Notes under the pieces: model-generated
What the model saw: the letters and a program-made list of their open reading frames with translations, nothing else
The model's database searches: none
Told to the model about the DNA's origin: nothing
Shown: positions 3,179 through 47,676 of the stretch, piece by piece
Layout: the number at the start of each line of letters is the position of its first letter
How positions within the stretch are numbered: the stretch's first letter is position 1
Source of the DNA: a virus
Reading direction: 5' to 3' (one strand)
DNA length: 56,913 nucleotides
IMG/VR virus record: IMGVR_UViG_3300043548_000643
Location: 1-56,913 of that record
Program-made: the position numbers and the translations under genes

Positions 3179-3823
3179 TTAGCGATTTACAACATTATTT
3201 AACAATTGCCCGATCTTGGCTTTATTTAGCTTTGTATAGTAATATTCCTGTTCGCTCAGATGGTCTTTAGCTATCTCTCTAGCTAGCCCTTTATCTTTTG
3301 TGTGCTCTAGCTCGTGAGCTACACCTTTACGCAGTTCTTTTTTATTAAAAACGCTATCTGGCTTATTATCCCCTAGCCCACCCTTAAGCTTTTCTACGAC
3401 TTTTCGCTTTTCGCTAGCTGTCTTGCTGTACCAACGAGCTAGTGCGCTGCTTTTATACATGTTGTTCTGAAGAGCCTCCATAGTAGCCTCTGTCTCTTCT
3501 TTCGTTATAGGAGCTATACGCCCAAAGTTACTCATTACTCCTGGATTGCCTAATCCTAGATGTATTTTTTGTGTAGCTTTTGGGATGTTTCCACCAAGAA
3601 TAGCGTCAAGCAGCCCTGAGGGTTTAGCTGATGCCGCAATAGCTGCCCCAGGAACCTTTTGGATTATAGGATTTTTTAGCAACTGTTTATATTGCAGCTC
3701 TTGAGCATCGTGCTCTCTATCTCTACGCTCAAGAGCGTCCATCATAGATTCGCCATGCTCTGGAGCAGGCATTCTATTTCTACCAAAGAGTATTTTACTA
3801 ACCTGGCTGTTTCTAGGATCCAT
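3179..3823 (-). CDS. DUF5661-domain virion-cluster protein
   Basis: This is a 214-residue protein. The C-terminal part (about residues 158-205) carries the DUF5661 signature: GVAHELEHTKDKGLAREIA followed by a DHLSE and tandem-Tyr motif. This small helical domain is found in many phages and its function is unknown. The N-terminal 120 residues are helical and low in similarity to anything recognised. The start codon overlaps the end of the upstream DUF3008 gene by one base, so the two are probably translationally coupled. Its position among structural genes suggests a virion or cargo protein; this is inference. Confidence 0.6.
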   Translation of the reverse strand: MDPRNSQVSKILFGRNRMPAPEHGESMMDALERRDREHDAQELQYKQLLKNPIIQKVPGAAIAASAKPSGLLDAILGGNIPKATQKIHLGLGNPGVMSNFGRIAPITKEETEATMEALQNNMYKSSALARWYSKTASEKRKVVEKLKGGLGDNKPDSVFNKKELRKGVAHELEHTKDKGLAREIAKDHLSEQEYYYTKLNKAKIGQLLNNVVNR

Positions 3824-4269
3824 TATTTTTTAGAAGCCCTGTCCATCTCTCTTCCGTAAGCCTGTAGTTTATCTAGTCTTCTCATGTTCATAAGGGCAGG
3901 TATTCCCTTTTTCTGTTTATCAATAAATCCTTTAAATATAGAATCTGACTTGGGATCTTCGTGCTTCTTGATGTACTTTTTAATTTTATCTAATGTATTG
4001 GCTGTTTTGTATAGCTCTTCAGCAATCTTTACAGCTTCAACTATTTCATTTTCAGAGTAACCATATTCAGCTGCTCTTTTCATGAAGCCTTCAATATAAG
4101 CTTTCTTCTCAGGTAAGTCGCTATGCTTAGTTTTAGCAAAGTCCCTCAGTTGCTTTTCAGTCATACTATCAGCAATTTCTTGAACTTTAGAGCCAAAACG
4201 ACCCTTGCCTCTTTTAGAGGCAAGAGCCATCCCCATGAGTCTTTGTTGAGCTTCGCTTTTTGCGGGCAT
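3823..4269 (-). CDS. DUF3008 protein carrying the shared AYIEGF module internally
   Basis: Residues 1-53 match the DUF3008 pattern seen in phage proteins (SEAQQRLMGMALASKRGKG, then ADSMTEKQLRDFAKTKH). Immediately after, residues ~55-90 contain KAYIEGFMKRAAEYGYSENE, the module that sits at the very N-terminus of five neighbouring proteins. The module is therefore mobile between proteins. The remaining ~55 residues are Lys-rich and helical. It is followed after 1 nt by another module-bearing gene. Function unknown; the cluster suggests a virion-packaged protein. Confidence 0.65.
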   Translation of the reverse strand: MPAKSEAQQRLMGMALASKRGKGRFGSKVQEIADSMTEKQLRDFAKTKHSDLPEKKAYIEGFMKRAAEYGYSENEIVEAVKIAEELYKTANTLDKIKKYIKKHEDPKSDSIFKGFIDKQKKGIPALMNMRRLDKLQAYGREMDRASKK

Positions 4270-4270
4270 A

Positions 4271-4768
4271 CTACCACCCTTGTTCTTGCTTTGTTTGATT
4301 GATCAGCTCATCCAGCTTTTGGTTGTAGCGTCTAACTCCTAAGCCTGCACCTAGAGCTCTTCCTCCAAGTCTACCTGAACTAACAGCACTTTGTATTGCT
4401 TCAGGGTCAGTTTGGCCTAGTAAATGAGATAGTCCATAGCCTGCAGCCCCTCCAGCGATGTCTCCCAGGAATGTGCCTCCAGAGATATTAGCTGTTCTGC
4501 TTGGAGAGCCCTCTTCGCTTGTGAGATCTTGATAAGCGTTATATGCAATAGGAGCCATCCCACCAGCTTCACCACCAACACTATCAGGAGCAACTCTACC
4601 CATCATCATAGCTCCTAGCATGTTCATCATTGGGTTAGCCTTCTGTTGTTCGAGGTTATAGACGTTTCTTTCGGCACGCTTCAGTAGCGCAACAGCCTCA
4701 GCTTCATTGAAGCCGTATTCACTTGCTCTCTTAACGAATCCTTCGATGTATGCTTGCTCGTTAGTCAT
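4271..4768 (-). CDS. Tagged protein with Gly/Ala-rich hydrophobic segment
   Basis: This 165-residue protein begins with the shared N-terminal module (QAYIEGFVKRASEYGFNEAE, residues 5-24). A Met-rich patch follows (about 45-56), then a Gly/Ala-rich stretch (about 96-148) that resembles glycine-zipper membrane-inserting regions, and a Lys/Gln-rich tail. It abuts tagged genes on both sides with 1-nt gaps, so all are cotranscribed. The glycine-zipper reading is only composition-based. Confidence 0.55.
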   Translation of the reverse strand: MTNEQAYIEGFVKRASEYGFNEAEAVALLKRAERNVYNLEQQKANPMMNMLGAMMMGRVAPDSVGGEAGGMAPIAYNAYQDLTSEEGSPSRTANISGGTFLGDIAGGAAGYGLSHLLGQTDPEAIQSAVSSGRLGGRALGAGLGVRRYNQKLDELINQTKQEQGW

Positions 4769-4769
4769 A

Positions 4770-5006
4770 TTAGAATTGTTCGTCGGCGGGCATAGGGACG
4801 AGAGGTTTTTTAGGAGGATTAGCTACATCATTAGCATTTCCCTTGATCGCGCTCGGTACCTTAGGTGCTGGTGCTTTAGGCTTACCAGCCATAGGCATTT
4901 CTCCTGCAGCCTGCTTTAAAAAATTAATAGCTTCAGCTTCATTAAAGCCATATTCAGCTGCTCTCTTTACGAATCCCTCGATGTATGCTTGTTCTTGTTG
5001 TGTCAT
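4770..5006 (-). CDS. Short tagged protein, Pro/Lys-rich tail
   Basis: This 78-residue protein is essentially the shared module (residues 5-34, AYIEGFVKRAAEYGFNEAE and LKQAA) plus a short disordered tail rich in Pro, Lys and Ala. It is the smallest carrier of the tag in the window, which suggests the tag itself is the functional part. It lies 1 nt from the next tagged gene and 2 nt after the HNH gene. Confidence 0.55.
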   Translation of the reverse strand: MTQQEQAYIEGFVKRAAEYGFNEAEAINFLKQAAGEMPMAGKPKAPAPKVPSAIKGNANDVANPPKKPLVPMPADEQF

Positions 5007-5008
5007 AG

Positions 5009-5353
5009 TTATTCTGGTCTAGTTTTAAGTTTATTTCTCCAAAGGTCCACATCTTCTCTGACATTCTCATTTAAGCTTTTATAGTTACCCAAGTGGCCAA
5101 AGAATAAATGACAATATACTCCATTACCTTTATCTTCGCAAAGAGTAATTAGGTTATTTGGGTCGAGTTCTAGCTCAGGGTTTAAGTGAAAAGGCTTTAT
5201 ATGATGAACCTCTAGCTTCTTCGTACCCTCGCAGAGAGCACAGGTAGGGTTGTTCTTGATGTGGTTCTTTCTAACAGTACGCCAATGCGACGATCTTTTG
5301 TGCAGGGGCTCTTTACCCTCCTGCATTTCTTTAAGTGTCGTTACGTTAGCCAT
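5009..5353 (-). CDS. HNH endonuclease
   Basis: This 114-residue protein has the compact HNH fold signature: a CALC zinc knuckle (about 37-40), LEVHHIKPF with the catalytic His pair (about 48-56), NNLITLCED (about 66-74), and a late Cys-His pair (CHLFFGH). Such free-standing nucleases either home as selfish genes or assist DNA packaging next to terminase; no terminase is nearby here, so a homing role is more likely. It is inserted between tagged structural genes, and an A/T-rich promoter-like stretch lies upstream. Confidence 0.8.
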   Translation of the reverse strand: MANVTTLKEMQEGKEPLHKRSSHWRTVRKNHIKNNPTCALCEGTKKLEVHHIKPFHLNPELELDPNNLITLCEDKGNGVYCHLFFGHLGNYKSLNENVREDVDLWRNKLKTRPE

Positions 5354-5391
5354 AGATAGATTTTATAATACTAGAGTATTTTCTGCAAATA

Positions 5392-5427
5392 TATAAAAGA
5401 AAAGACCCTCAGGTAATGAGAGTCTTT
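5392..5427 (-). terminator. Rho-independent terminator after the 5449-6051 gene
   Basis: On the minus strand an 11-bp stem (AAAGACUCUCA / UGAGGGUCUUU, one G-U pair) with a 5-nt loop is followed by UCUUUU. It separates the tagged gene upstream from the HNH gene. Confidence 0.7.
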
Positions 5428-5448
5428 AGCTTTACTAGGTTAATTAAA

Positions 5449-6051
5449 TTATCTAGCACCAGCAATACCTAGAGTCTGATTTCCTCCAAATGTATTATTT
5501 ACAGCTGGAAGATTGAGTATGGGGCTATCTGCTCCAGGACCGACAGGAGTTCTTTGATACCCTGCTGCCCTTAAGCTTGGACCATAGAAAGTGTGCGCCG
5601 CTTGCTCTGCTCCTTGGCCTAACGATTCTGCAGCTCCTGAGATTCCCTGTCTTAAAGCACTGCCAGCCCCTGAAAAACCTTGTCTTAAAGCGCTACCAGC
5701 TCCTGAAAAGCCTTGCCCCAGTGCCCTACCTGTCTGTCCAACCGTATTCATAGTATCGCGCACTCCTTGGCCTACAGTATTTACAGCGCCCTCAAGCTTC
5801 TGCCCCATATTGGAAGCTAAATTATGTGCTCCCTGGTTCAAGGCCCTACCTGCCCCCATAACCATGTCCTTACCTCTATTAAAGGTATTTCCTACAGCTT
5901 GTACACCGCTGTCGGCCTTTGCTCCAAGCCTTTGACCTAAATCTGCAAAAGAAAAAGCTCTTTTGTATAATTCAATAGCCTCAGCTTCATTATAGCCGTA
6001 TTCACTTGCTCTCTTTACGAATCCGTTGATGTATGCTTGTTGTGTGTTCAT
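5449..6051 (-). CDS. Tagged protein with amphipathic GQGFSGAGSAL repeats
   Basis: Residues 4-31 carry the shared module (QAYINGFVKRASEYGYNEAE). Residues ~45-140 consist of about seven imperfect 11-residue repeats (examples ALRQGFSGAGS, TVGQGVRDTMN, NLASNMGQKLEG). This period is typical of amphipathic helices that bind membranes or line channels. The C-terminus is Gly/Asn/Pro-rich. A TATATT -10-like box and an AGAAG ribosome-binding site precede the ATG. The terminator at 5392-5427 closes the transcript. Role unknown; membrane interaction during genome delivery would be a testable guess. Confidence 0.55.
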   Translation of the reverse strand: MNTQQAYINGFVKRASEYGYNEAEAIELYKRAFSFADLGQRLGAKADSGVQAVGNTFNRGKDMVMGAGRALNQGAHNLASNMGQKLEGAVNTVGQGVRDTMNTVGQTGRALGQGFSGAGSALRQGFSGAGSALRQGISGAAESLGQGAEQAAHTFYGPSLRAAGYQRTPVGPGADSPILNLPAVNNTFGGNQTLGIAGAR

Positions 6052-6095
6052 AATTTCTTCTAGTTTATTCTAAACTCTAGAATATATCAAATATT

Positions 6096-6542
6096 TTATA
6101 GCTTTTTAGTCGCCCTTCTTTTCCCATATGCTTCTAGTATTTTTTCTCGCACAAGCTCATCTTCTTCCTCGATATCTTCCTCGTCTAAACGCAATACGAC
6201 ATAGCCTCCCTTTGTAAGCTTTTGAGTTTTCTGACTGTCCTTGTATTGAGTCATAGCGTCTCCATGCCAGTATGCTCCATCAGCAAAAATAGCCACATTA
6301 GGCTCGATAAAGATGTCAGCGATAGTGACACCTAGAATAGGTTTTTGAGTAACAAACTCTATATCTAGAGCCAAGAGCATAGCTTGCAGCTTAAGTTCTA
6401 TACCTGTCTCTTTTCTGTCTCCAGAAAGATACCCTTTGATACTTGCGCACCGTTTAGAGCAAGTCTTGCCTTCCCGCATTCTTTCACTTTCACGAGGCCA
6501 GAGCTTTCCGCAAGTCTTGCACTCGAATTTTTGCTTTTTCAT
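6096..6542 (-). CDS. Vsr-like PD-(D/E)XK endonuclease with N-terminal zinc knuckle
   Basis: The ATG at 6542 overlaps the DUF1501 stop by one base (TGATG), giving 148 residues. The N-terminus has CKTCGK...CSKRC, a zinc-binding pair. The rest resembles very-short-patch-repair/EDxHD homing nucleases: an early Glu (GIELKLQAML), then ADIFIEPNVAIFADGAYWHG with the metal-binding Asp and the WHG motif, and a C-terminal VVLRLDEEDI strand. In phages such enzymes are usually free-standing homing endonucleases. Its tight coupling to DUF1501 could mean the two travelled together. Confidence 0.7.
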   Translation of the reverse strand: MKKQKFECKTCGKLWPRESERMREGKTCSKRCASIKGYLSGDRKETGIELKLQAMLLALDIEFVTQKPILGVTIADIFIEPNVAIFADGAYWHGDAMTQYKDSQKTQKLTKGGYVVLRLDEEDIEEEDELVREKILEAYGKRRATKKL

Positions 6543-7900
6543 CAAGCAATCAATTCTTTGATCACATTACCATACACGTCAGTGAGCCTAAAGGGTCTGC
6601 CGTTATAGTTATAAATCAAACGTTCATGATCAAATCCCATTAAACGCAAGATAGTAGCATGAAGATCGTGGATGTGTACGATGTCTTTCATAGATTTAGA
6701 GCCCACCTCGTCAGTCTCTCCATACCTTTGACCTCCTTTGACTCCTCCTCCGCACATCCATACACTGAAAGCTTTGCCGTTGTGATCTCTACCTGGAGCT
6801 CCTGCGCCTCCACCACTGGTAACAGTACGTCCAAATTCACCTCCCCACACAATTAATACACTGTCGAATAATCCTCGTTGCTTGAGATCGCCTATAAGTG
6901 CGCTAAAAGCCTGATCATATCTACGAGCTGTGTTACTCATAGCGTTTTTAATATCACTGTGGTGGTCATACCCCCCAACATTTACCTGAACCACACGCAC
7001 ACCACGCTCTACAAGCCTACGAGCAATCAGCATCTTTGCTCCTTCCTCAGTTTTTCCGTAGGCTTCTTTAATATTCTCAGGTTCTTTAGATATATCGAAC
7101 GCGTCGCTAGCCTCTGTCTGCATTTTAAACGCTGTCTCAAACGACTCTATACGGCTTTCTAGCTGTTCGTCTTTTTGAAGCTTCAGCATATGCTCAGTAC
7201 TGAGGCTTTTTGCAAAGTCAAGTTGGCGTCTTTGACGAGATAACGACGAAACCTCGCTCTGAAGGTTAGCCAAAATCTCACTAGATTGTATATTCTGTCG
7301 ATAGTTTACATTGCACCCCTGATACATGCCTGGAAGAAATGCGCACTGACGAGATTCTGGAGAACTATTCAATGAAATGAACCCAGGCATGTTCTCATTT
7401 TGAGTGCCTAACCCATAAACGAGCCAGCTGCCTAGGCTAGGTTTACTAAGCTGCGCTGAACCTGTATGCATAAGCTTGCTAGCTATTCCATGATCAGGGA
7501 TGTCTGTCTGCATGCTGTTGATGATAGCCAGGTCATCAGCATGCTTACCCAACTCTTTCCATACCTCACTGATATTTAATCCTGATTTTCCAAATCTAGG
7601 AAATTCAAACGGTGAAGCTAACAGATTACCGTAGTCGTGCTTCACTCCATCTCGCTTCTGCAGTTCAGGCTTATAGTCGAATGTGTCTACATGACTAGGC
7701 GCACCGCTAGCAAACAATTGAATTATTGCTTTAGCCTTTACTGGGAAGTGTGGAGTCTTAGCAGCCATAGGGCTAGCTGCTTCTAGCGTTGTTGGGTTCA
7801 ACCCAAACACGCTAGCTAGAGACAATCCGCCCAAACCCCAGGCGAATTCGTTTAGGAATTCTCTTCTACTAGAGAACGATGGGTGATTGCCGCAGTTCAT
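6542..7900 (-). CDS. DUF1501 family protein with Tat signal
   Basis: The 452-residue protein starting MNCGNHP at 7900 (1 nt after the upstream stop) is full length for the family. Residues 11-16 (SRREFL) plus a hydrophobic stretch make a twin-arginine export signal. The body carries family motifs: FASGAPSHVDTFDYKP, GSWLVYGLG, VVQVNVGGYDHHSD, WGGEFGRT, GRDHNGKAFSVWMCGGGVKG and HDLHATILRLMGFDH. DUF1501 proteins belong to the alkaline phosphatase/sulfatase superfamily and abound in Planctomycetes and Verrucomicrobia, where they pair with DUF1549/DUF1553 cytochrome-like proteins. No partner is present here. It sits among virion genes, so it is either an auxiliary gene acquired from the host or a virion-associated enzyme. 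Confidence 0.88.
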   Translation of the reverse strand: MNCGNHPSFSSRREFLNEFAWGLGGLSLASVFGLNPTTLEAASPMAAKTPHFPVKAKAIIQLFASGAPSHVDTFDYKPELQKRDGVKHDYGNLLASPFEFPRFGKSGLNISEVWKELGKHADDLAIINSMQTDIPDHGIASKLMHTGSAQLSKPSLGSWLVYGLGTQNENMPGFISLNSSPESRQCAFLPGMYQGCNVNYRQNIQSSEILANLQSEVSSLSRQRRQLDFAKSLSTEHMLKLQKDEQLESRIESFETAFKMQTEASDAFDISKEPENIKEAYGKTEEGAKMLIARRLVERGVRVVQVNVGGYDHHSDIKNAMSNTARRYDQAFSALIGDLKQRGLFDSVLIVWGGEFGRTVTSGGGAGAPGRDHNGKAFSVWMCGGGVKGGQRYGETDEVGSKSMKDIVHIHDLHATILRLMGFDHERLIYNYNGRPFRLTDVYGNVIKELIA

Positions 7901-7901
7901 A

Positions 7902-8642
7902 TTATTTAAACCTTTTTGCAAAAGAGTCGTTAAAAGATTTTTGCCATTCTTTTAAATCAAGATTTTTAACTGTCGCAAAAAAATCGTTTTCTTTTTCGTA
8001 CTCGGACAAATCTGGTATATTCTGAATGGGAGGTCTAAAAGATTTTCCCCATTTAGGGTTGTATTTATTCATATGCTCTTTGAGCATCTTATTGTAGAGA
8101 TACTCTTGAGATGCTGGAAAATCTGGTGAGTTTATGTCTTCCGTGTAAGCATCTACAAATTTATTGCCATCATATTTTTGTGGACGCGGTAAGGGCTTAT
8201 TACGGTACTGGTTTGCGCTTGCAAGATCTCTGAAATGACCACTTGCCATATCTGTAGAGTCAAAGGCGTCTTGCTTGACAGAAGAATCAGGGGGGTCAAA
8301 CCCAAACACAGGTTTTTTACCCATAATATCTCCAAGCCCTTGCACCCACTTGTCTTTCGGCGTCATGCTAGATAAAGGAGCATTTTTCAAAATACTTAAA
8401 TCTTTCTTGTTCGGTGTATATCCTGGTGCACTAGATGCAGGCGCAACACTAGGCGATTGAGTAGTTGTAGCAGAATTAAAGTTCTGCTGCTTAGTTGCAC
8501 CAGCAGGCCACATAGGATCTTGCTGAGCTACCACATTTTGAGCGTTAGCTCTCTTCCACAGCGTGATAGCTTCATTTTCACTGTAGCCATAGTCAGCCGC
8601 CCTCTTTACAAACCCATTGATGTATGCTCGCTGTGTGGTCAT
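7902..8642 (-). CDS. Tagged protein of unknown function, 246 residues
   Basis: The shared module occupies residues 4-31 (RAYINGFVKRAADYGYSENE, then LWKRA). A disordered Gln/Ala/Ser/Pro linker follows to about residue 80. The C-terminal ~110 residues look folded, with aromatic and charged helices (NKMLKEHMNKYNPKWGKSF, EYEKENDFFATVKNLDLKEW). The layout (tag, flexible linker, cargo domain) is what would be expected of a targeted or packaged protein. It ends 1 nt before DUF1501, so both are likely on one mRNA. Confidence 0.5.
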   Translation of the reverse strand: MTTQRAYINGFVKRAADYGYSENEAITLWKRANAQNVVAQQDPMWPAGATKQQNFNSATTTQSPSVAPASSAPGYTPNKKDLSILKNAPLSSMTPKDKWVQGLGDIMGKKPVFGFDPPDSSVKQDAFDSTDMASGHFRDLASANQYRNKPLPRPQKYDGNKFVDAYTEDINSPDFPASQEYLYNKMLKEHMNKYNPKWGKSFRPPIQNIPDLSEYEKENDFFATVKNLDLKEWQKSFNDSFAKRFK

Positions 8643-8668
8643 ATTGCTTTACTCTAACTCAAACGCAA

Positions 8669-8709
8669 ATCAGGGATCACCGAAGCTTTAATCTCCAATG
8701 ATCCCTGAT
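8669..8709 (-). terminator. Perfect 11-bp hairpin after the 8729-9253 gene
   Basis: ATCAGGGATCA pairs perfectly with TGATCCCTGAT across a 19-nt loop. The downstream tract on the minus strand (TTTGCGTTT) is only moderately U-rich, so it may be a weak terminator or an RNA-processing/attenuation structure between two tagged genes. Confidence 0.5.
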
Positions 8710-8728
8710 ATTACTAACGCTTTTTAAG

Positions 8729-9253
8729 TTACTTTCTTCCAGGAGCTGCTGTGGCAGGGGCATTACCCATAACTCCACCGTAAGCATTAGCTGGACTCTT
8801 TCTTGTTCCCTGCATGTTCGGGTTGTTGATACCTAAAAACCCCATGATCTTCTCATTCATGGTAGGATCAGCACTTGCTGCTGCAGAGCCCCCACCAATA
8901 ACAGCAGAGCTAGGGGTTGGTGTAGGTGCCTGAGGCTTGACTGAAGGTGCAAGTGCCTGAGGCTTGACTGAAGGTGCAGCCGCACCTCCACGGTTAAAAA
9001 GACTAGACATGATTTGCGTGTCTGGTGTGCCTGGAGCTGTTAACGGATTAAACCCGTCCGCAGCTTGTTTACGCTGTCTGAGCTTTTTTAGATCAGAACC
9101 TTCAATCTTGCCGTCTTTATCTACATCAAGCTTATGCTGATCTCCTTTGAGCTCAGATGCTCTCTTAAAGATCTCTACAGCCTCATGTTGACTGAAGCCA
9201 TACTCAGCTGCGCGCTTAACGAATCCTTCAATATATGCTTGTTCTAAGTTCAT
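8729..9253 (-). CDS. Tagged protein with an EF-hand/dockerin-like calcium loop
   Basis: The shared module spans residues 4-32 (QAYIEGFVKRAAEYGFSQHE). Right after it, residues ~40-52 (DVDKDGKIEGSD) match the calcium-binding loop of EF-hands and dockerins: Asp at positions 1, 3 and 5 and an acidic residue at 12. The rest is Pro/Ala/Gly-rich and includes a direct duplication of APSVKPQA. Only one loop is present, so calcium binding alone would be weak unless it dimerises. It is a likely virion or cargo protein by context. Confidence 0.5.
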   Translation of the reverse strand: MNLEQAYIEGFVKRAAEYGFSQHEAVEIFKRASELKGDQHKLDVDKDGKIEGSDLKKLRQRKQAADGFNPLTAPGTPDTQIMSSLFNRGGAAAPSVKPQALAPSVKPQAPTPTPSSAVIGGGSAAASADPTMNEKIMGFLGINNPNMQGTRKSPANAYGGVMGNAPATAAPGRK

Positions 9254-9294: not shown

Positions 9295-10305
9295 TTAGCT
9301 AAAAAAGAAGAGTAATGCAAGCGTAATAAGTATTGTGAGTACGATGATAAACGGTAGAGCTGGCTTCTTTTCTTCCACAACAACCACAGGTTCTGGTGCA
9401 GGAGGCACAACAGGCTCTACAACCTCAATAACCGGAGGCTCAACAACTGGCTCGACCACAGGTTCAGGCGTAGGCTCAATTACCGGTTCTGGCTTGGGCT
9501 CTTCAACAGGGTCACTCTCATACTCATCGCTAGTCTCTGTAAGTCTGACAGTCCAGAAGTCAAAGCTGTCGTTGCTCATGATATAGCTCAATGGAATATA
9601 GCAATATCCCTTGTCTCCCCAGTTTGTTCCCCAGCTATTCTGCACAATCAGATATTCTTGCCCATTGTAATTTTTAATATACCCTACAGCGAGCATGCAG
9701 TGAGCGCCTACAAACTTCTCTGACTCTCTGTCAGGAGCGAGCATAAACCCTCCCATGAGCTCCATGAAAGGATCGAAGAAAGACGCGTATAAGTTTAATC
9801 CAAACGCAAAAGGATAACCGTCGTTTAGACAGTTGAGCCACTCATCTTTGTTAAAATCGTCTATTTTAAGATATTCTAAAGCCTGATGCTTCTCAGCAAT
9901 CTTCCATGCCTCTTCAGGCGGATTTTCATTATAGTTTTCAATTATATAGGGCCATACCCTCTCCATACTCACACCATCTCTAGCTAAGCTTTTAAGAGCA
10001 TCGCGTATAGCTGCCCCAGAGTCAGTCAATATGGGGGCTACAGCTTTGCGAGTAGCATAGTATGTGAACAGTGGGCTAGGCATCCAGCGAACCATGCTGT
10101 GCTTTCTGCGAACAAAGTCGAACATCGAGGTAGCGGCAAAAGCCGTACACGAACCTATATTTCCTTGGGCTCTAGGAACGCTGCAGTCTTTTCTAAGGTC
10201 TATATTGTTTAGCTCGGTCCAGTGTGTAAGCTTTGGTTTATACGGTCTGTCCCTAGGATCTTCCACTTGTTTATTGCAGCCATGCTTAAAATCTTCAATA
10301 TTCAT
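9295..10305 (-). CDS. Papain-like (C1A) cysteine peptidase with C-terminal membrane anchor
   Basis: This is a 336-residue protein. The papain triad is clear: QGNIGSCTAF (oxyanion Gln47, catalytic Cys53), GAHCMLAVGY (His202) and QNSWGTNWGDKGY (Asn223). After the ~250-residue catalytic domain comes a linker dominated by Pro, Glu and Val (about 260-312). A single hydrophobic helix ends the protein (about 314-336), giving a tail anchor. There is no N-terminal signal or obvious propeptide. C1A peptidases are uncommon in phages; prohead proteases belong to other clans. Possible roles are cleavage of tagged virion proteins encoded next door, or action in the infected host envelope. Family call sure, role open. 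Confidence 0.85.
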   Translation of the reverse strand: MNIEDFKHGCNKQVEDPRDRPYKPKLTHWTELNNIDLRKDCSVPRAQGNIGSCTAFAATSMFDFVRRKHSMVRWMPSPLFTYYATRKAVAPILTDSGAAIRDALKSLARDGVSMERVWPYIIENYNENPPEEAWKIAEKHQALEYLKIDDFNKDEWLNCLNDGYPFAFGLNLYASFFDPFMELMGGFMLAPDRESEKFVGAHCMLAVGYIKNYNGQEYLIVQNSWGTNWGDKGYCYIPLSYIMSNDSFDFWTVRLTETSDEYESDPVEEPKPEPVIEPTPEPVVEPVVEPPVIEVVEPVVPPAPEPVVVVEEKKPALPFIIVLTILITLALLFFFS

Positions 10306-10306
10306 A

Positions 10307-11893
10307 TTATCTATATTTGAGGTTTAATTCAGTCTGTGTTTTATATTCTGATGGTAGATGTACCTTTTTTGGTGCAGCTTCTTCTCCCATATCGAGGAAT
10401 TTTCTAAGCTCAGATTTAGCTTTGTTTCTAGCTCTGCTTTTAACTGCAGCTTTCTGACCTGCTCTTAGAGCAGCTTTATCTCCAGTGAGAATAGCTTTTC
10501 TGATATGATCTGGCATAGCTGCAGTTTTTTCGTAAGGATATTCTTTTAGCTTAACGTGCTTGTTGAAAAATTTACCAGGGCTCTTCACTCGTTTAATCCG
10601 ATCGAATATAGTTTTAGGAACATCTAGATATTTATATTCAGAACCACTATGGAAAGCTACATCTAGAGATTTACTAGGTTTGTCGTACCCTACAGCTCGG
10701 ATGTTAGAGCTCTTTAATGGATAGGTTGCTTCGCTTGATTTTAATACGCAGCCTATTTTCTCGAACAATGAACTGTGATCTTCGCCACACTTACAATTCC
10801 ACTTCCTTAAGGACTTGTTGATACGACTGTCTGGATCACTCTGAGCTTTGCTTCCTGTGTTCACTCGCTTCATCCCACACATACGACTACAGAAGCTGTT
10901 TTGACGCTTAGCTCTATCTCCTTTAGGGTTGCTCTCTGTGACTGGAGCTTTGAGTGTTCCTCCTGTTTGTTTTTTATAGCTGGCTCTTCCTTTAGCATTC
11001 AATCCGCCTTCAGGATTCTTGCCTTCGCTACGCTGCCATGCAGGACTAGCTGCAGATTCTTTACTCAATTTATCCCATTGTTTCTTGTCTGGATAATCCT
11101 CATCTCCAGGTTTAGCAGCTTTCTCTCCACGCTTTCTCTTTGCATGAATATTTGCCCATAGGCCAGGACGCTCAGCAGACTGCTTTTCCATTGAAGCAGT
11201 CTTCTCTACAGGACAACATAGATCACCTTTTACCTCATAACCCTCTGGAACACTATATTCCATTTCCTTGAGATACTCACCACTGAATGCTTTACCTTCA
11301 TCTACTAGCTTAGCTACCTCTTTAGGTACCCCTGCAACCTTCTCTATATACGCGTACAGGTCCAACACTTCACTTGTTTTCTCTAACTCAGTATAGCCTT
11401 CAACCTCAAACCCTAGTTTACCCAATAACTCAACATCTTCATTATTTACGAACAAGCCACCATCAACATCAGCTATTCCAGTATTACGACTATATGCTAT
11501 AGCTCTCTTACTTAACAATGTTCCTTCTCTAGGATCGGTTGGCTTTGATATATCTGGCAGCTTCTCTAATACTCGTGGAATCTTTGTGAACTGCTTGTTA
11601 TGCTGTGGCGCTGGTACACCTGTGTTATATCCTCGTGCAGGATTAGATACAGGTGTAGTTATTGCAGGCTTGGCTGAACTTGCGCCTGACAATGGAACAC
11701 TGTTAGGGTTAGTCACAGTAGGTTGTAGAGATTTAATCTTATTCTCTAATGAACTCTCGTCAGGGTTAGGATTATCCTGCTCACCGTTCTCTGATGGTGC
11801 GTAGCCCTGAAGCTCTAGAGCAGTTTTTTCTTTTTTTCTGTTTTCTGCTGAAGAAAGTTTGAGAAAATTGAGATATTGTACAAGCGCAGACAT
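10307..11893 (-). CDS. Multidomain protein with DUF6321 and KTSC domains
   Basis: This is a 528-residue protein, first in the late transcript. The N-terminal ~150 residues are disordered (Pro/Asn/Ser-rich). The middle contains RPGLWANIHAKRKRG and a DUF6321 pattern: SPAWQRSEGKNPEGGLNAKG, then KNSF-like FCSRMCGMKR and DPDSRINKSLRKWNC. After that comes a KTSC domain (SNIRAVGYDKPSKSLDVAF ... YKYLDVPKTIFDRI ... GKFFNKHVK). These domains recur in phage structural and packaging clusters without known biochemical role. Several Cys pairs (CC, CKC) may bind zinc. The C-terminus is Lys/Arg-rich. Confidence 0.65.
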   Translation of the reverse strand: MSALVQYLNFLKLSSAENRKKEKTALELQGYAPSENGEQDNPNPDESSLENKIKSLQPTVTNPNSVPLSGASSAKPAITTPVSNPARGYNTGVPAPQHNKQFTKIPRVLEKLPDISKPTDPREGTLLSKRAIAYSRNTGIADVDGGLFVNNEDVELLGKLGFEVEGYTELEKTSEVLDLYAYIEKVAGVPKEVAKLVDEGKAFSGEYLKEMEYSVPEGYEVKGDLCCPVEKTASMEKQSAERPGLWANIHAKRKRGEKAAKPGDEDYPDKKQWDKLSKESAASPAWQRSEGKNPEGGLNAKGRASYKKQTGGTLKAPVTESNPKGDRAKRQNSFCSRMCGMKRVNTGSKAQSDPDSRINKSLRKWNCKCGEDHSSLFEKIGCVLKSSEATYPLKSSNIRAVGYDKPSKSLDVAFHSGSEYKYLDVPKTIFDRIKRVKSPGKFFNKHVKLKEYPYEKTAAMPDHIRKAILTGDKAALRAGQKAAVKSRARNKAKSELRKFLDMGEEAAPKKVHLPSEYKTQTELNLKYR

Positions 11894-45089: not shown

Positions 45090-45424
45090 CTCTGAAACCT
45101 TTCTGGTGTTTCGTGAATGTTGCCGATGACTTCTAGCTTATCTCTGTAATACGCTAGGGCTTGATGATCTCCGTCTATGTTTTCAACTTGGTAGCCTGAA
45201 TACTCTAGAGAGTAGCTTACAACATAGATATAAGCTGTACCTCGTCTCTTCACAATGTCGCCTTCATAGATTTCAATACCGTGGATGTCAGTGGAACCGA
45301 TATATTGCTGTACCGGATAATCTTTTTGATCTAGGTACCGATCTGAAAGGTCGAAATCATCAAGTCCGAAATAGGCGAATTTTCCTATATCTGGAATATA
45401 TACTCTGAATTTAAGTGTTCTCAT
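45086..45424 (-). CDS. YopX family phage protein, second copy
   Basis: 112 residues: TLKFRVYIPDIGKFAYFGLD, QQYIGSTDIHGIEIYEGDIV and LEVIGNIHETPE. Same fold as 43648-44019 but well diverged. Confidence 0.75.
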   Translation of the reverse strand: MRTLKFRVYIPDIGKFAYFGLDDFDLSDRYLDQKDYPVQQYIGSTDIHGIEIYEGDIVKRRGTAYIYVVSYSLEYSGYQVENIDGDHQALAYYRDKLEVIGNIHETPERFQR

Positions 45425-45830
45425 TGTTCTCCTCCTGCTTGTCTAGCTCTTCAGATTCTTTAATTCGCCTCAAGACCTCCATGAATGCTTCTGCTTTGTA
45501 TCTGCTAGGAATGTGAAACGTATCGTAGGTATACCCTTGGAGAATATTTTTATACACAAACCAGAACACTTCTCCATACTTGAAGTGCATCAAACACTCT
45601 TCGGCTTTGTGCATAGCGTCGAGACTACTCACATAGTCTGGAACTTTGACATACACTGAAAAGCTGTTAGGTCTAGCGTCAACTATAGACGCAGTCAACA
45701 TATAGCAGTCTAGCCCTGTACCCTCAGCTTCAACTCGTAAATCTACATTTTTATACCCACAAAATTCAGCAATCGCCTTGTTGATCTCGTTTTTTATTTG
45801 TTCTGCTAGTGGTCCTGTTGAGTATTCCAT
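45411..45830 (-). CDS. ABA-sandwich family phage protein
   Basis: 139 residues with the family landmarks: NKAIAEFCGYKN at the start, VPDYVSSLDAMHKAEECL in the middle and KAEAFMEVLRRIKE at the end. Part of a six-copy set at 45.4-48.9 kb. Confidence 0.6.
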   Translation of the reverse strand: MEYSTGPLAEQIKNEINKAIAEFCGYKNVDLRVEAEGTGLDCYMLTASIVDARPNSFSVYVKVPDYVSSLDAMHKAEECLMHFKYGEVFWFVYKNILQGYTYDTFHIPSRYKAEAFMEVLRRIKESEELDKQEENNENT

Positions 45831-46159
45831 TTTCCTAATGTTTTTAAGAATGCTTCTGCTTTTTGACGGGCGGTGGCTGTGAGTAGCTCATCATAATGAT
45901 GACTCTTTGATATACGTGCTGCGTAATCATAAATCAGCACGCCTTTAATTGTTCTAATTACCTTCTCTGCTTCATGCATAGCATCGAGGCTGTTCACATA
46001 ATCTGGCACTCTCTTCCAAACAGCTTCACCTCCATGATGTTCAGCTTCATACCATAAACAAACACCCTCAGGATCAAATTTACCTCTACGAGTGCCTCTT
46101 TTCACTGGAAGGTTAAACACGACTTCTGCGATCTTTTGATTAATTTCAAGGTCAGTCAT
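45806..46159 (-). CDS. ABA-sandwich family phage protein
   Basis: 117 residues: EINQKIAEVVFNLPVKRG, VPDYVNSLDAMHEAEKVI and ARQKAEAFLKTLGKWN. Overlaps the next gene by 25 nt. Confidence 0.65.
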   Translation of the reverse strand: MTDLEINQKIAEVVFNLPVKRGTRRGKFDPEGVCLWYEAEHHGGEAVWKRVPDYVNSLDAMHEAEKVIRTIKGVLIYDYAARISKSHHYDELLTATARQKAEAFLKTLGKWNTQQDH

Positions 46160-46496
46160 TTTCTTTCCACTTTCCTAATGTTTTTAAGTATGCTTCTGCT
46201 CGTTGTCTTGCTCTAGCTGATAACCATCCACGTTTTGCAGGTGTTGGGTTATCCCGCAAAGCTATTAAATATAGTTCATTACTGAATGCTCTGTAGGAGC
46301 TAGTGTCCATGCTTAGCTCAACCTCATGCATAGCATCGAGGCTATTCGCATAGTCTGGGCACTCTTTCAAAAGATATCCTTCTGGATCTCGCTCTGTCTT
46401 TGGTCCACATGGAGTCAGACAATGCGTGATACCATCTGAGACAATAGTGAATCCACGGCTTTTATGGACAGCTATATTGATTTCTTCACTAGTCAT
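46152..46496 (-). CDS. ABA-sandwich family phage protein
   Basis: The ATG at 46496 (MTSEEINIAVHKSRGF) was chosen by alignment with paralogues. 114 residues: CPDYANSLDAMHEVELSM and ARARQRAEAYLKTLGKW. Its C-terminal DNA (KTLGKWKEND) is nearly identical to that of the 47311 gene. Confidence 0.65.
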   Translation of the reverse strand: MTSEEINIAVHKSRGFTIVSDGITHCLTPCGPKTERDPEGYLLKECPDYANSLDAMHEVELSMDTSSYRAFSNELYLIALRDNPTPAKRGWLSARARQRAEAYLKTLGKWKEND

Positions 46497-46497
46497 A

Positions 46498-46656
46498 CTA
46501 TTTCTTCCAGCTAAAACCGAAGAAGTTATACACTTCAAAAAAGCTAGTTTTATTCTCTCTGTGATAACTGTTGTAGCTGATCATGGGGTAATACCACCCT
46601 TTCTCCCATTGAAAATGCCAATACTTGATACGAATGTTAATAAATGTGTTATCCAT
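46498..46656 (-). CDS. Small aromatic protein
   Basis: The ATG at 46656 (MDNTFINIRIKYWHFQWEKG) gives 52 residues, very rich in Tyr, Trp, Phe and His. It fills the gap between neighbours exactly. Not recognised. Confidence 0.4.
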   Translation of the reverse strand: MDNTFINIRIKYWHFQWEKGWYYPMISYNSYHRENKTSFFEVYNFFGFSWKK

Positions 46657-46657
46657 A

Positions 46658-46990
46658 TTATTCTTCTGGAGTCCAAGCAAGAATTAGGTGAAATGTACCA
46701 AAACACATTCCGTGAGAATCGAAAGGAATTTTTCCCATTTCTGGATTAAAATCTTCGTTAATTGCTTCTGAAATATCCCGATCTATATCACATACATCTA
46801 AAACCTTGTCTTCTATTGTATAATTCCTTTGAACTATACGATATATGTCGCCACCATGACATTTTTTCCTAAGTACTATATCTTTTTTTGCTGATTCTAA
46901 ATCAGAATGAACTCCATCAAACGCATCAAACCATGATCTACCTATATGTGATTCATATTGCACAACGTATTTCGTAAAGTCTTTACTCAT
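46658..46990 (-). CDS. YxVEY-domain protein (family A)
   Basis: 110 residues: TKYVVQYESHIGRSWFDAFD, DLESAKKDIVL and DIYRIVQRNYTIEDKV form the family A domain. A short C-terminal extension of unknown fold follows. Confidence 0.5.
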   Translation of the reverse strand: MSKDFTKYVVQYESHIGRSWFDAFDGVHSDLESAKKDIVLRKKCHGGDIYRIVQRNYTIEDKVLDVCDIDRDISEAINEDFNPEMGKIPFDSHGMCFGTFHLILAWTPEE

Positions 46991-46991
46991 A

Positions 46992-47318
46992 TTATTCCTT
47001 CCATTTATCGAATGCTCGCAGCATAGCTTCTACTCTTTGTCTTGCTGTAGCAAAAAATGCTGAGGCAAATTCTTCTGCGTCGGGGTTGTCTCGATCAACA
47101 ATCGCGCAAAGCTCATTTGTAAATATTAGCCTTTTTTCTTCTGTTAGTTTAGGCCAAAGAGCTTCGAATGTATAAGCGTCATCCCAGTAATCAGGTATCA
47201 AGCGTCTATGTCTTCCTTCAGGATTTGTTCCAACATATTCGTAATACTTCAAATCTTTTTCGATATTTGTCCACCCACACAATTCAGCTAGAGCGATATT
47301 GATTTCAAGGTCAGTCAT
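46992..47318 (-). CDS. ABA-sandwich family phage protein
   Basis: 108 residues: LEINIALAELCGWTNIE, then a diverged IPDYWDDAYTFEALWPKL, and ATARQRVEAMLRAFDKWKE. The LDAMHEAE helix is degenerate in this copy. Confidence 0.6.
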   Translation of the reverse strand: MTDLEINIALAELCGWTNIEKDLKYYEYVGTNPEGRHRRLIPDYWDDAYTFEALWPKLTEEKRLIFTNELCAIVDRDNPDAEEFASAFFATARQRVEAMLRAFDKWKE

Positions 47319-47676
47319 TTTCTTTCCACTTTCCTAATGTTTTTAAGTATGCTTCTGCTCTTTGTCTTGCCGAGGCATGAAGTAAATCGAAGTGCTCCGA
47401 CAGATCTATTGCCGAACCATGACACAGAACTAGCAATAACCTGAAAGCGAAATCTCGCCTTTGTTTATCGTCTAGCCGCTCTTCAGCCTCTCTCATGGCG
47501 TTTAGGTTATTGCAATAATCAGGAAACGTGCAACTACCAGCAACAGGAGGAGATCCAATACGCACCATTTCCGGAACATCGCTTACGTCCCAATATTTTT
47601 GTGGTTTTGGTAGCACCTTGCAATTTTTCCACCCAAGTGACTCTGCAATTGCTATATTAATTTCTTCGCTAGTCAT
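47311..47676 (-). CDS. ABA-sandwich family phage protein
   Basis: 121 residues: EEINIAIAESLGWKNCK, FPDYCNNLNAMREAEERL and ASARQRAEAYLKTLGKWKE. It is the most canonical member (PDYxNxLNAMxEAE). Confidence 0.7.
   Translation of the reverse strand: MTSEEINIAIAESLGWKNCKVLPKPQKYWDVSDVPEMVRIGSPPVAGSCTFPDYCNNLNAMREAEERLDDKQRRDFAFRLLLVLCHGSAIDLSEHFDLLHASARQRAEAYLKTLGKWKEND

Follow-up and report, generated by a model that had tools for sequence, protein, structure and literature searches.

Why should several phage proteins of otherwise different sequence begin with the same thirty or so residues? The question is raised by a 56.9-kb stretch of viral DNA (all of IMG/VR virus record IMGVR_UViG_3300043548_000643, positions 1 to 56,913, here called the window), in which the initial annotation had noticed five open reading frames (ORFs) that share an N-terminal leader, here called the tag, and had suggested a capsid-targeting or protease-processed leader carried by unrelated proteins in a virion gene cluster. 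Our best reading of the analysis given below is that the tag works like the capsid targeting sequence of phage T4, with a new sequence and a new cleavage code; that is, we consider it reasonably probable (about 0.6) that it is a docking tag for the prohead core that is then cut by a prohead protease specific for K-x-A.

The existence of the tag in the window was established as follows: a hidden Markov model (HMM) built from the five leaders recovered those same five, at the N-termini of five minus-strand ORFs, from the six-frame translation of the window with E values of 7.9e-23 or better, and also found a sixth copy at about residue 55 of ORF 3823-4269 (E 4.8e-14), the next match in the window having an E value of 3.1. 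Models built with one leader left out recovered each held-out leader (E 4.6e-20 to 1.2e-23) from a database that included 1,194 shuffled six-frame window segments, of which the best match over the five runs had an E value of 0.75. The common leader of about 30 residues was thus confirmed, and its proposed consensus needs two small corrections, namely that the ORF at 7902 begins R-A-Y instead of Q-A-Y and that the tag of the ORF at 4770 ends K-Q-A instead of K-R-A. Compared as DNA, the five have an identity of 0.69-0.80 inside the tag, but of 0.16-0.35 upstream of it and 0.17-0.39 downstream; because the likeness is limited to the tag itself, what they share is a peptide and not a regulatory element, and a shared promoter or RNA element was rejected on these grounds.

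How widely is the tag spread, and what does it carry? Tag-based and major capsid protein (MCP)-based scans of viral contigs gave 17 records beyond the window, the largest of 204 kb, so that the tagged phages are known as 18 IMG/VR records (referred to by G numbers) of large, uncultivated phages. The window and one of these, the 184-kb G009, have many genes in common, which are collinear among the matches listed. An iterated model finds 96 tag copies in 83 proteins of the 18 records: 60 proteins have a single N-terminal copy; 12 others have theirs beyond residue 15, where 10 more have two or three; and the last has an N-terminal and a second copy (G010 and G011, which hold an identical protein, were entered as two in these and the cargo counts and were omitted from the codon comparison below). 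A single copy is C-terminal, in a protein of G005 whose ATP-grasp match narrowly misses the Pfam cut-off. The conserved columns are G-F-x-K-x-A and a terminal K-x-A, and the G and final A of G-F-x-K-x-A are invariant in all 96 copies. The cargo of the 60 N-terminally tagged proteins was grouped into 42 clusters, 34 with a single member (two cargos shorter than 25 amino acids were left uncompared and entered as singletons). A few cargos have Gly-zipper-like segments, judged by eye or, in G003 118560, from a match below the Pfam cut-off. The same cargo can occur with and without the tag: the domain encoded at 10307-11893 is untagged in the window and bears the tag in G001, G004, G006 and G008, the G008 homolog being a DUF6321 protein.

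Residue identity of the tags averages 0.544 within and 0.519 between genomes, and the codons used at identical residues agree at 0.515 within and 0.454 between genomes, where codon usage predicts about 0.39 (0.384 for the between-genome value). Since the residues are conserved while the codons are near the usage expectation, purifying selection seemingly acts on the peptide, and some recent local copying of the tag seems to have occurred besides. Concerted evolution as the main cause was rejected because identities within and between genomes are nearly equal. Thirteen records have at least three tagged genes besides the multi-tag gene described below, and among these genes stands a DUF559 gene in 10 (G000-G009) and an HNH gene in six; these endonucleases may help to shuffle the cargo.

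The position of one tagged gene bears on function. A homology search of the window found no counterpart to the prohead protease or MCP of G005, so all statements about the head module derive from its relatives, and the "virion gene cluster" of the initial annotation depends on these and on the collagen-like and fibre-like neighbors of the tagged genes in the window. The protease of the head-tail module matches phrog_18299, head maturation protease (E 2.4e-9), and its MCP matches phrog_2522 (E 1.5e-3), shows homology (28% identity, E 6e-26) to the MCP annotated in Salmonella phage Arash and has further relatives in the Vibrio phages D69, D181 and D148; long genes of the module were taken for tail genes from their size and order, PHROGs having named none of the three that were scanned. 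Protease and MCP genes are both present in 11 records (G003, G004, G005, G007, G009 and G012-G017, the MCP being partial in G017), and in every one of these a tag-bearing gene adjoins the protease gene and precedes the MCP gene. Its product, which we call the core-position protein, has two or three scored tag copies in 10 of the 11 records and, in G013, one scored copy plus degenerate ones seen by eye (it is therefore one of the 12 proteins with a sole copy beyond residue 15). These proteins are 244-603 amino acids long and by eye have a mostly acidic, low-complexity start, then the tag units, and after them an EF-hand-like loop in four and mostly a Gly-zipper-like stretch. The loop, in G004, G005, G012 and G017, is that of the window ORF at 8729, and the Gly-zipper-like ends likewise recur (by eye), so that the original impression that tagged proteins have nothing in common after the leader holds within the window as far as examined and fails outside it. 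Up to ten further tagged genes accompany the core-position gene in one genome (G005).

The gene order of T4 is protease 21, scaffold core 22 and MCP 23, and the multi-tag protein thus occupies the place of the gene 22 scaffold core protein. The G005 two-tag protein matches none of the PHROGs at E 0.01, a search in which gp22 itself was not profile-compared, and among proteins of solved structure the best sequence matches of the MCP (E 0.037) and the core-position protein (E 0.064) are both of unrelated kinds. Because the tag is repeated in the protein encoded between protease and MCP, it probably loads proteins into the head. In AlphaFold models the tag appears as two helices joined by a turn, presumably in hairpin geometry, a reading that rests on the secondary structure of the models: the 78-residue window protein (ORF 4770-5006), modeled with 26 other tags, has helices at residues 3-18 and 23-33 with predicted local distance difference test (pLDDT) values of about 85-92, the rest being low, and the G005 two-tag protein (mean pLDDT 53) has helices 126-138/143-170 and 298-320/325-341 at its tags, the first of which scores about 80 and the second 62-72.

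Is there a protease site in the tag and, if so, do the head proteins share it? K-x-A was first spotted by eye at the tag end and in head proteins. With the tags masked, phi-x-K-x-A occurs in the head-tail modules of five genomes at 1.85-2.26 times the shuffled expectation (z 4.8-6.4) and elsewhere at 1.14-1.40 times (the limits of modules and head blocks were chosen manually, and ORFs shorter than 60 amino acids were excluded from motif counts). A blind scan, in which all residue pairs at spacings 1-6 with sufficient expected counts were ranked, avoids the choice of motif. K.A ranks first in seven of seven head blocks, those of G003, G004, G005, G007 and G009 (tags masked), Arash and D69, and in none of 69 blocks outside the module (it ranks third in one and worse than fifth in 68); over the whole head-tail module it ranks 2 to 9 in four genomes. 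T4, whose gp21 protease is reported to cut at L/I-X-E (PMC9026906), served as positive control, and its head block gave I.E at rank 1 of 1,584 and L.E at rank 10, with L.E at rank 1 of 94 in gp22 alone. In the seven head blocks L.E ranks 100 to 1,127 and I.E 169 to 1,666, so the T4-type site was not found there, and A.E and S.E rank 55 to 924 and 324 to 1,325, respectively. K-x-A also stands at one column near the N-terminus of all 13 aligned MCPs (one of them partial), including those of Arash and D69; its A is residue 26 in G005, residue 28 in G013 and residue 29 in both Arash and D69. At 48 of the 96 sites in Arash and D69, K-x-A is followed by S or A. Herpesvirus assemblins cut Ala-Ser.

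The place of K-x-A in the tag differs between the two kinds of tagged protein. In accessory tags (those outside the core-position proteins) 56 of 59 copies have it in the middle and 49 of the 59 have it at the end, two of the 61 copies being unplaced (a stricter pattern gives 53/61 and 48/61). Of the 23 core copies, 22 have it directly in front of the unit, nine in the middle (one of these, in G017, matches a neighboring stretch) and six at the end. The cargo of 59 accessory proteins contains 40 K-x-A where shuffling gives 57.8 ± 6.8 (one shuffle in 300 is as low) and 686 other ORFs contain 568 where 551 are expected; because 40 residue pairs out of 2,012 fall short by more than K-x-A does in this cargo, the depletion gives modest support.

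These observations can be joined into a mechanism of docking, packaging, cleavage and ejection, which we infer to run as follows. The two-helix tag would dock accessory proteins into the prohead core, where the acidic multi-tag protein at the place of gp22 would be its partner, and accessory proteins with one N-terminal (sometimes internal) copy would co-assemble with the core as the shell is built over it. With K-x-A as its putative site, the prohead protease would then cut the accessory tags in the middle and at the end and so free the cargo inside the head, and would cut the core protein directly before each tag copy; the freed cargo would remain inside the particle and accompany the DNA on its delivery. 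A more specific version appears to us possible and is put forward tentatively: a homotypic docking code, by which passengers enter the core as core subunits do and are released by two K-x-A cuts inside the unit, where the core protein has K-x-A mostly only beside it, with a K-x-A protease class that extends to Arash and the Vibrio D69 group and a hypervariable cargo that consists of new virion-delivered early proteins.

Can the virion of a cultured relative be consulted? Arash is described as an orphan myovirus in a new genus (PMC10585845), and Table 2 of that report lists among the proteins detected by virion mass spectrometry the protease gp222, gp218, gp220, gp221, gp223, gp224 and the MCP gp226, with coverages of 86.6% for gp226 and 100% for gp223. 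The 59 Arash proteins annotated as structural contain 69 sites where 35.8 are expected, gp218 and gp220-gp223 alone having 29 where 3.75 are expected; the 36 "other" proteins, chosen by annotation, contain 18 where 21.7 are expected, and since they include the RNA polymerase, ribonucleotide reductase and others listed by mass spectrometry, they are not a "non-virion" set. One virion protein encoded outside the head block, gp242 (OQ632216.1 174466-175335), has eight phi-x-K-x-A where 1.1 are expected, and is from its sequence a candidate for a further protease substrate. Orthology of Arash gp223 to the two-tag protein was not supported (hhalign 13%; 0.1% against the family of the 299-amino-acid neighbor).

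Several results weigh against the docking and cleavage reading. The second helix of the tag is all that a repeat in Arash gp223 resembles (hhalign 76% over 17 columns) and the tag HMM gives E 0.10 on the Arash record, and because this homology is weak the Arash mass spectrometry supports the head block and cannot be carried over to the tag; for the tagged phages themselves, no virion proteomics was found. The tag is not always a leader, as the 72 tagged proteins that do not belong to the core set include 11 whose sole copy lies beyond residue 15 (five of these have a Met just before the tag and are perhaps mis-started ORFs). A small tagged gene (77-87 amino acids) lies kilobases behind the MCP gene in nine of the 11 MCP records, for example at 144776-145015 in G005, and since it sits among genes taken for tail genes, the tag may not be head-only. 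K.A ranks only 96th over the whole head-tail module of G007, the five G genomes scanned are close (MCPs 91-97% identical), so that the seven scans represent about three lineages at most, and the scan missed A.E in SPN3US (rank 218 of 1,564), for which A-X-E is reported as the established head cleavage motif (PMC10052503). K-x-A is not enriched in the core-position proteins outside their tags (49 against 46.0 expected) nor in the accessory cluster (18 against 19.2 at 3-12 kb of the window), and the phiKZ-type A-x-E occurs in the middle of 59 of the 96 tags, though A.E is no top head-block pair. The interpretation in the initial annotation is partly supported: a capsid-targeting leader, probably processed by a protease, gains from the repeated tag next to the protease and from the head-block-specific K-x-A and is now the reading with the most support, whereas its N-terminal place does not hold for every tagged protein.

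Could the two-helix unit instead be a permanent oligomerization or docking module of virion proteins of head, tail and fiber region that is never cut, K-x-A being part of a helix-helix interface? The internal copies, the C-terminal one and the small gene among presumed tail genes would suit such a module, and the invariant G and A are not explained by a protease site alone. We nevertheless regard it as unlikely, since the K-x-A in the middle of nearly all accessory tags is mostly missing from core copies, which means that its K is not needed for the fold, and since K-x-A is the top pair of head blocks from which the tags have been masked while it is not frequent in the cargo.

A tag that sends proteins elsewhere in the infected cell (membrane, replication compartment, degradation or regulation) and has nothing to do with virions would agree with the few cargos that have Gly-zipper-like segments; we judge it quite improbable, because the multi-copy form is a constant feature of the gene between protease and MCP in the 11 records that have both, and because the proteins that Arash encodes at this place occur in its virions. 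Still more improbable in our judgement is that the tag is a functionless by-product of duplication and shuffling of neighboring genes. The DUF559 and HNH genes that stand among the tagged genes and the slightly higher codon sharing within genomes are what such a process might leave behind, but the similarity stops at the tag ends, and residues that are nearly as alike between genomes as within them, with codons near usage, speak for purifying selection.

The initial annotation had thought the tag undescribed, and the searches for relatives agree. Against Pfam, PHROGs and NCBIfam nothing better than E 0.017 was found, and membership in a known family was rejected because the best hits are at chance level (PHROGs E 0.028 to phrog_21018, with 3/44 members at E 1; Pfam E 0.019, 1/44; NCBIfam E 0.017, 1/44). 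One tag searched by tblastn against 50,697 phage records gave zero matches at E 10, and the two-tag protein gave zero against phage records at E 1. Two pattern scans of bacterial and archaeal genomes gave 51 and 97 stretches, none of which was confirmed; the presence of the motif in unrelated non-phage proteins, which the initial annotation had named as a finding that would speak against its reading, was thus not observed. The PMC literature, outside which most subscription papers lie, yielded no description of the tag or of a K-x-A prohead protease.

The features of the window are listed in Table 1. Defense-system models matched none of nine window proteins.

Table 1. Tag copies, tagged proteins and associated genes in the window
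Feature	Position	Strand	Remarks
Tag copy, N-terminus of ORF 4271-4768	4667..4768	-	HMM; Gly-zipper-like cargo
Tag copy, N-terminus of ORF 4770-5006	4905..5006	-	HMM; short Pro/Ala-rich tail
Tag copy, N-terminus of ORF 5449-6051	5953..6051	-	HMM; cargo has 11-mer repeats by eye
Tag copy, N-terminus of ORF 7902-8642	8544..8642	-	Cargo homolog with same tag in G003
Tag copy, N-terminus of ORF 8729-9253	9152..9253	-	EF-hand-like loop follows tag
Sixth tag copy, internal	4015..4107	-	Behind DUF3008 in ORF 3823-4269; internal-tag homologs in G003, G009
Tagged protein, 165 aa	4271..4768	-	
Tagged protein, 78 aa	4770..5006	-	
Tagged protein, 200 aa	5449..6051	-	Weak tape-measure-like match across its repeats
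Tagged protein, 246 aa	7902..8642	-	
Tagged protein, 174 aa	8729..9253	-	EF-hand-like loop, below Pfam cut-off
DUF3008 protein with internal tag, 148 aa	3823..4269	-	
Untagged homolog of tagged proteins in G001, G004, G006, G008	10307..11893	-	64-88% identity over 104-177 aa
HNH endonuclease	5009..5353	-	Homolog among tagged genes in 6/13 records
DUF559/Vsr-like endonuclease	6096..6545	-	Homolog among tagged genes in 10/13 records; not G012, G013, G016

Four neighboring regions of the window, all on the minus strand, deserve mention in their own right. ORF 6542-7921 encodes a phage-borne DUF1501 protein (Pfam E 1.9e-131), a family that we take to be typical of Planctomycetes-type bacteria; it has homologs in G009, G003 and G007 (62-81% identity) and in G001 (30%), and its TTG start overlaps the tagged ORF at 7902. 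The product of 3179-3823 resembles a 1,203-amino-acid tape-measure-like protein of G005 (E 2e-15), matches in relatives mainly the N-terminal part of the tape-measure-like protein and has a C-terminal DUF5661; it may be a second shared module on virion-type proteins. The product of 9295-10305 is peptidase-like (phrog_16701), appears by eye to have a linker rich in Pro and Glu and a C-terminus of hydrophobic residues, and has homologs near tagged genes in G009 (84%) and G003 (52%). Finally, several ORFs of about 110-140 amino acids at 45411-47676 match the same relatives (G009 102428, G003 54809, G015 145708) and, as judged through these common relatives, are probably paralogs.

If the docking and cleavage reading is true, these phages, with genomes of up to 204 kb, have an independent capsid targeting sequence that serves more passengers per genome and comes with a predicted secondary structure and protease code. 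For K-x-A, the cultured phage Arash offers a test of the prediction; the tagged proteins can be taken directly as candidates for delivery by the virion, and the tag itself is a candidate means of loading proteins into phage heads.

How does the tag compare with known systems? To our knowledge, capsid targeting sequences are known from few phages (T4 and P1), and the MuF domain, considered last below, is much larger than the tag of about 30 residues. The internal proteins IPI-IPIII and Alt of T4 are described as having a conserved N-terminal peptide and differing mature parts (PMC9026906, PMC3012670), and the likeness to one tag on 60 proteins with 42 clusters of cargo is plain. In those accounts the T4 internal proteins join a core encoded beside the prohead protease, which removes the peptide, and a tag-bearing gene stands at the corresponding place in the records studied here. 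The T4 sequence is given as 10 residues with an L/I-x-E site, and the tag has about 30 residues, two predicted helices and K-x-A; because the cleavage motif was tested and differs, we do not file the tag as a member of the T4 capsid targeting sequence family. It differs from T4 also in the number of tagged genes per genome and in the repetition of the unit in the core-position protein. The propeptides of phiKZ and SPN3US, as described (PMC9026906, PMC10052503), are likewise N-terminal and have several copies of a P3-x-P1 protease motif, and the preference of the SPN3US protease for Ser at P1' (PMC10052503) can be likened to the S or A that follows K-x-A. They are unlike the tag in that the reported head motif is S/A-x-E or A-x-E and that the SPN3US propeptides are mostly 111-254 residues long (two are 20-24), with no one sequence common to unrelated cargo in the published description. 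For P1 DarB, the N-terminal 30 residues, similar in length to the tag, are described as sufficient to target a reporter to the capsid (PMC9024508), a likeness drawn from that description, in which the signal belongs to one antirestriction protein. The tag can also be likened to the MuF-domain and polyvalent head-packaged effectors, in which, as they are described (PMC9503650), a head module is fused to a variable effector cargo.

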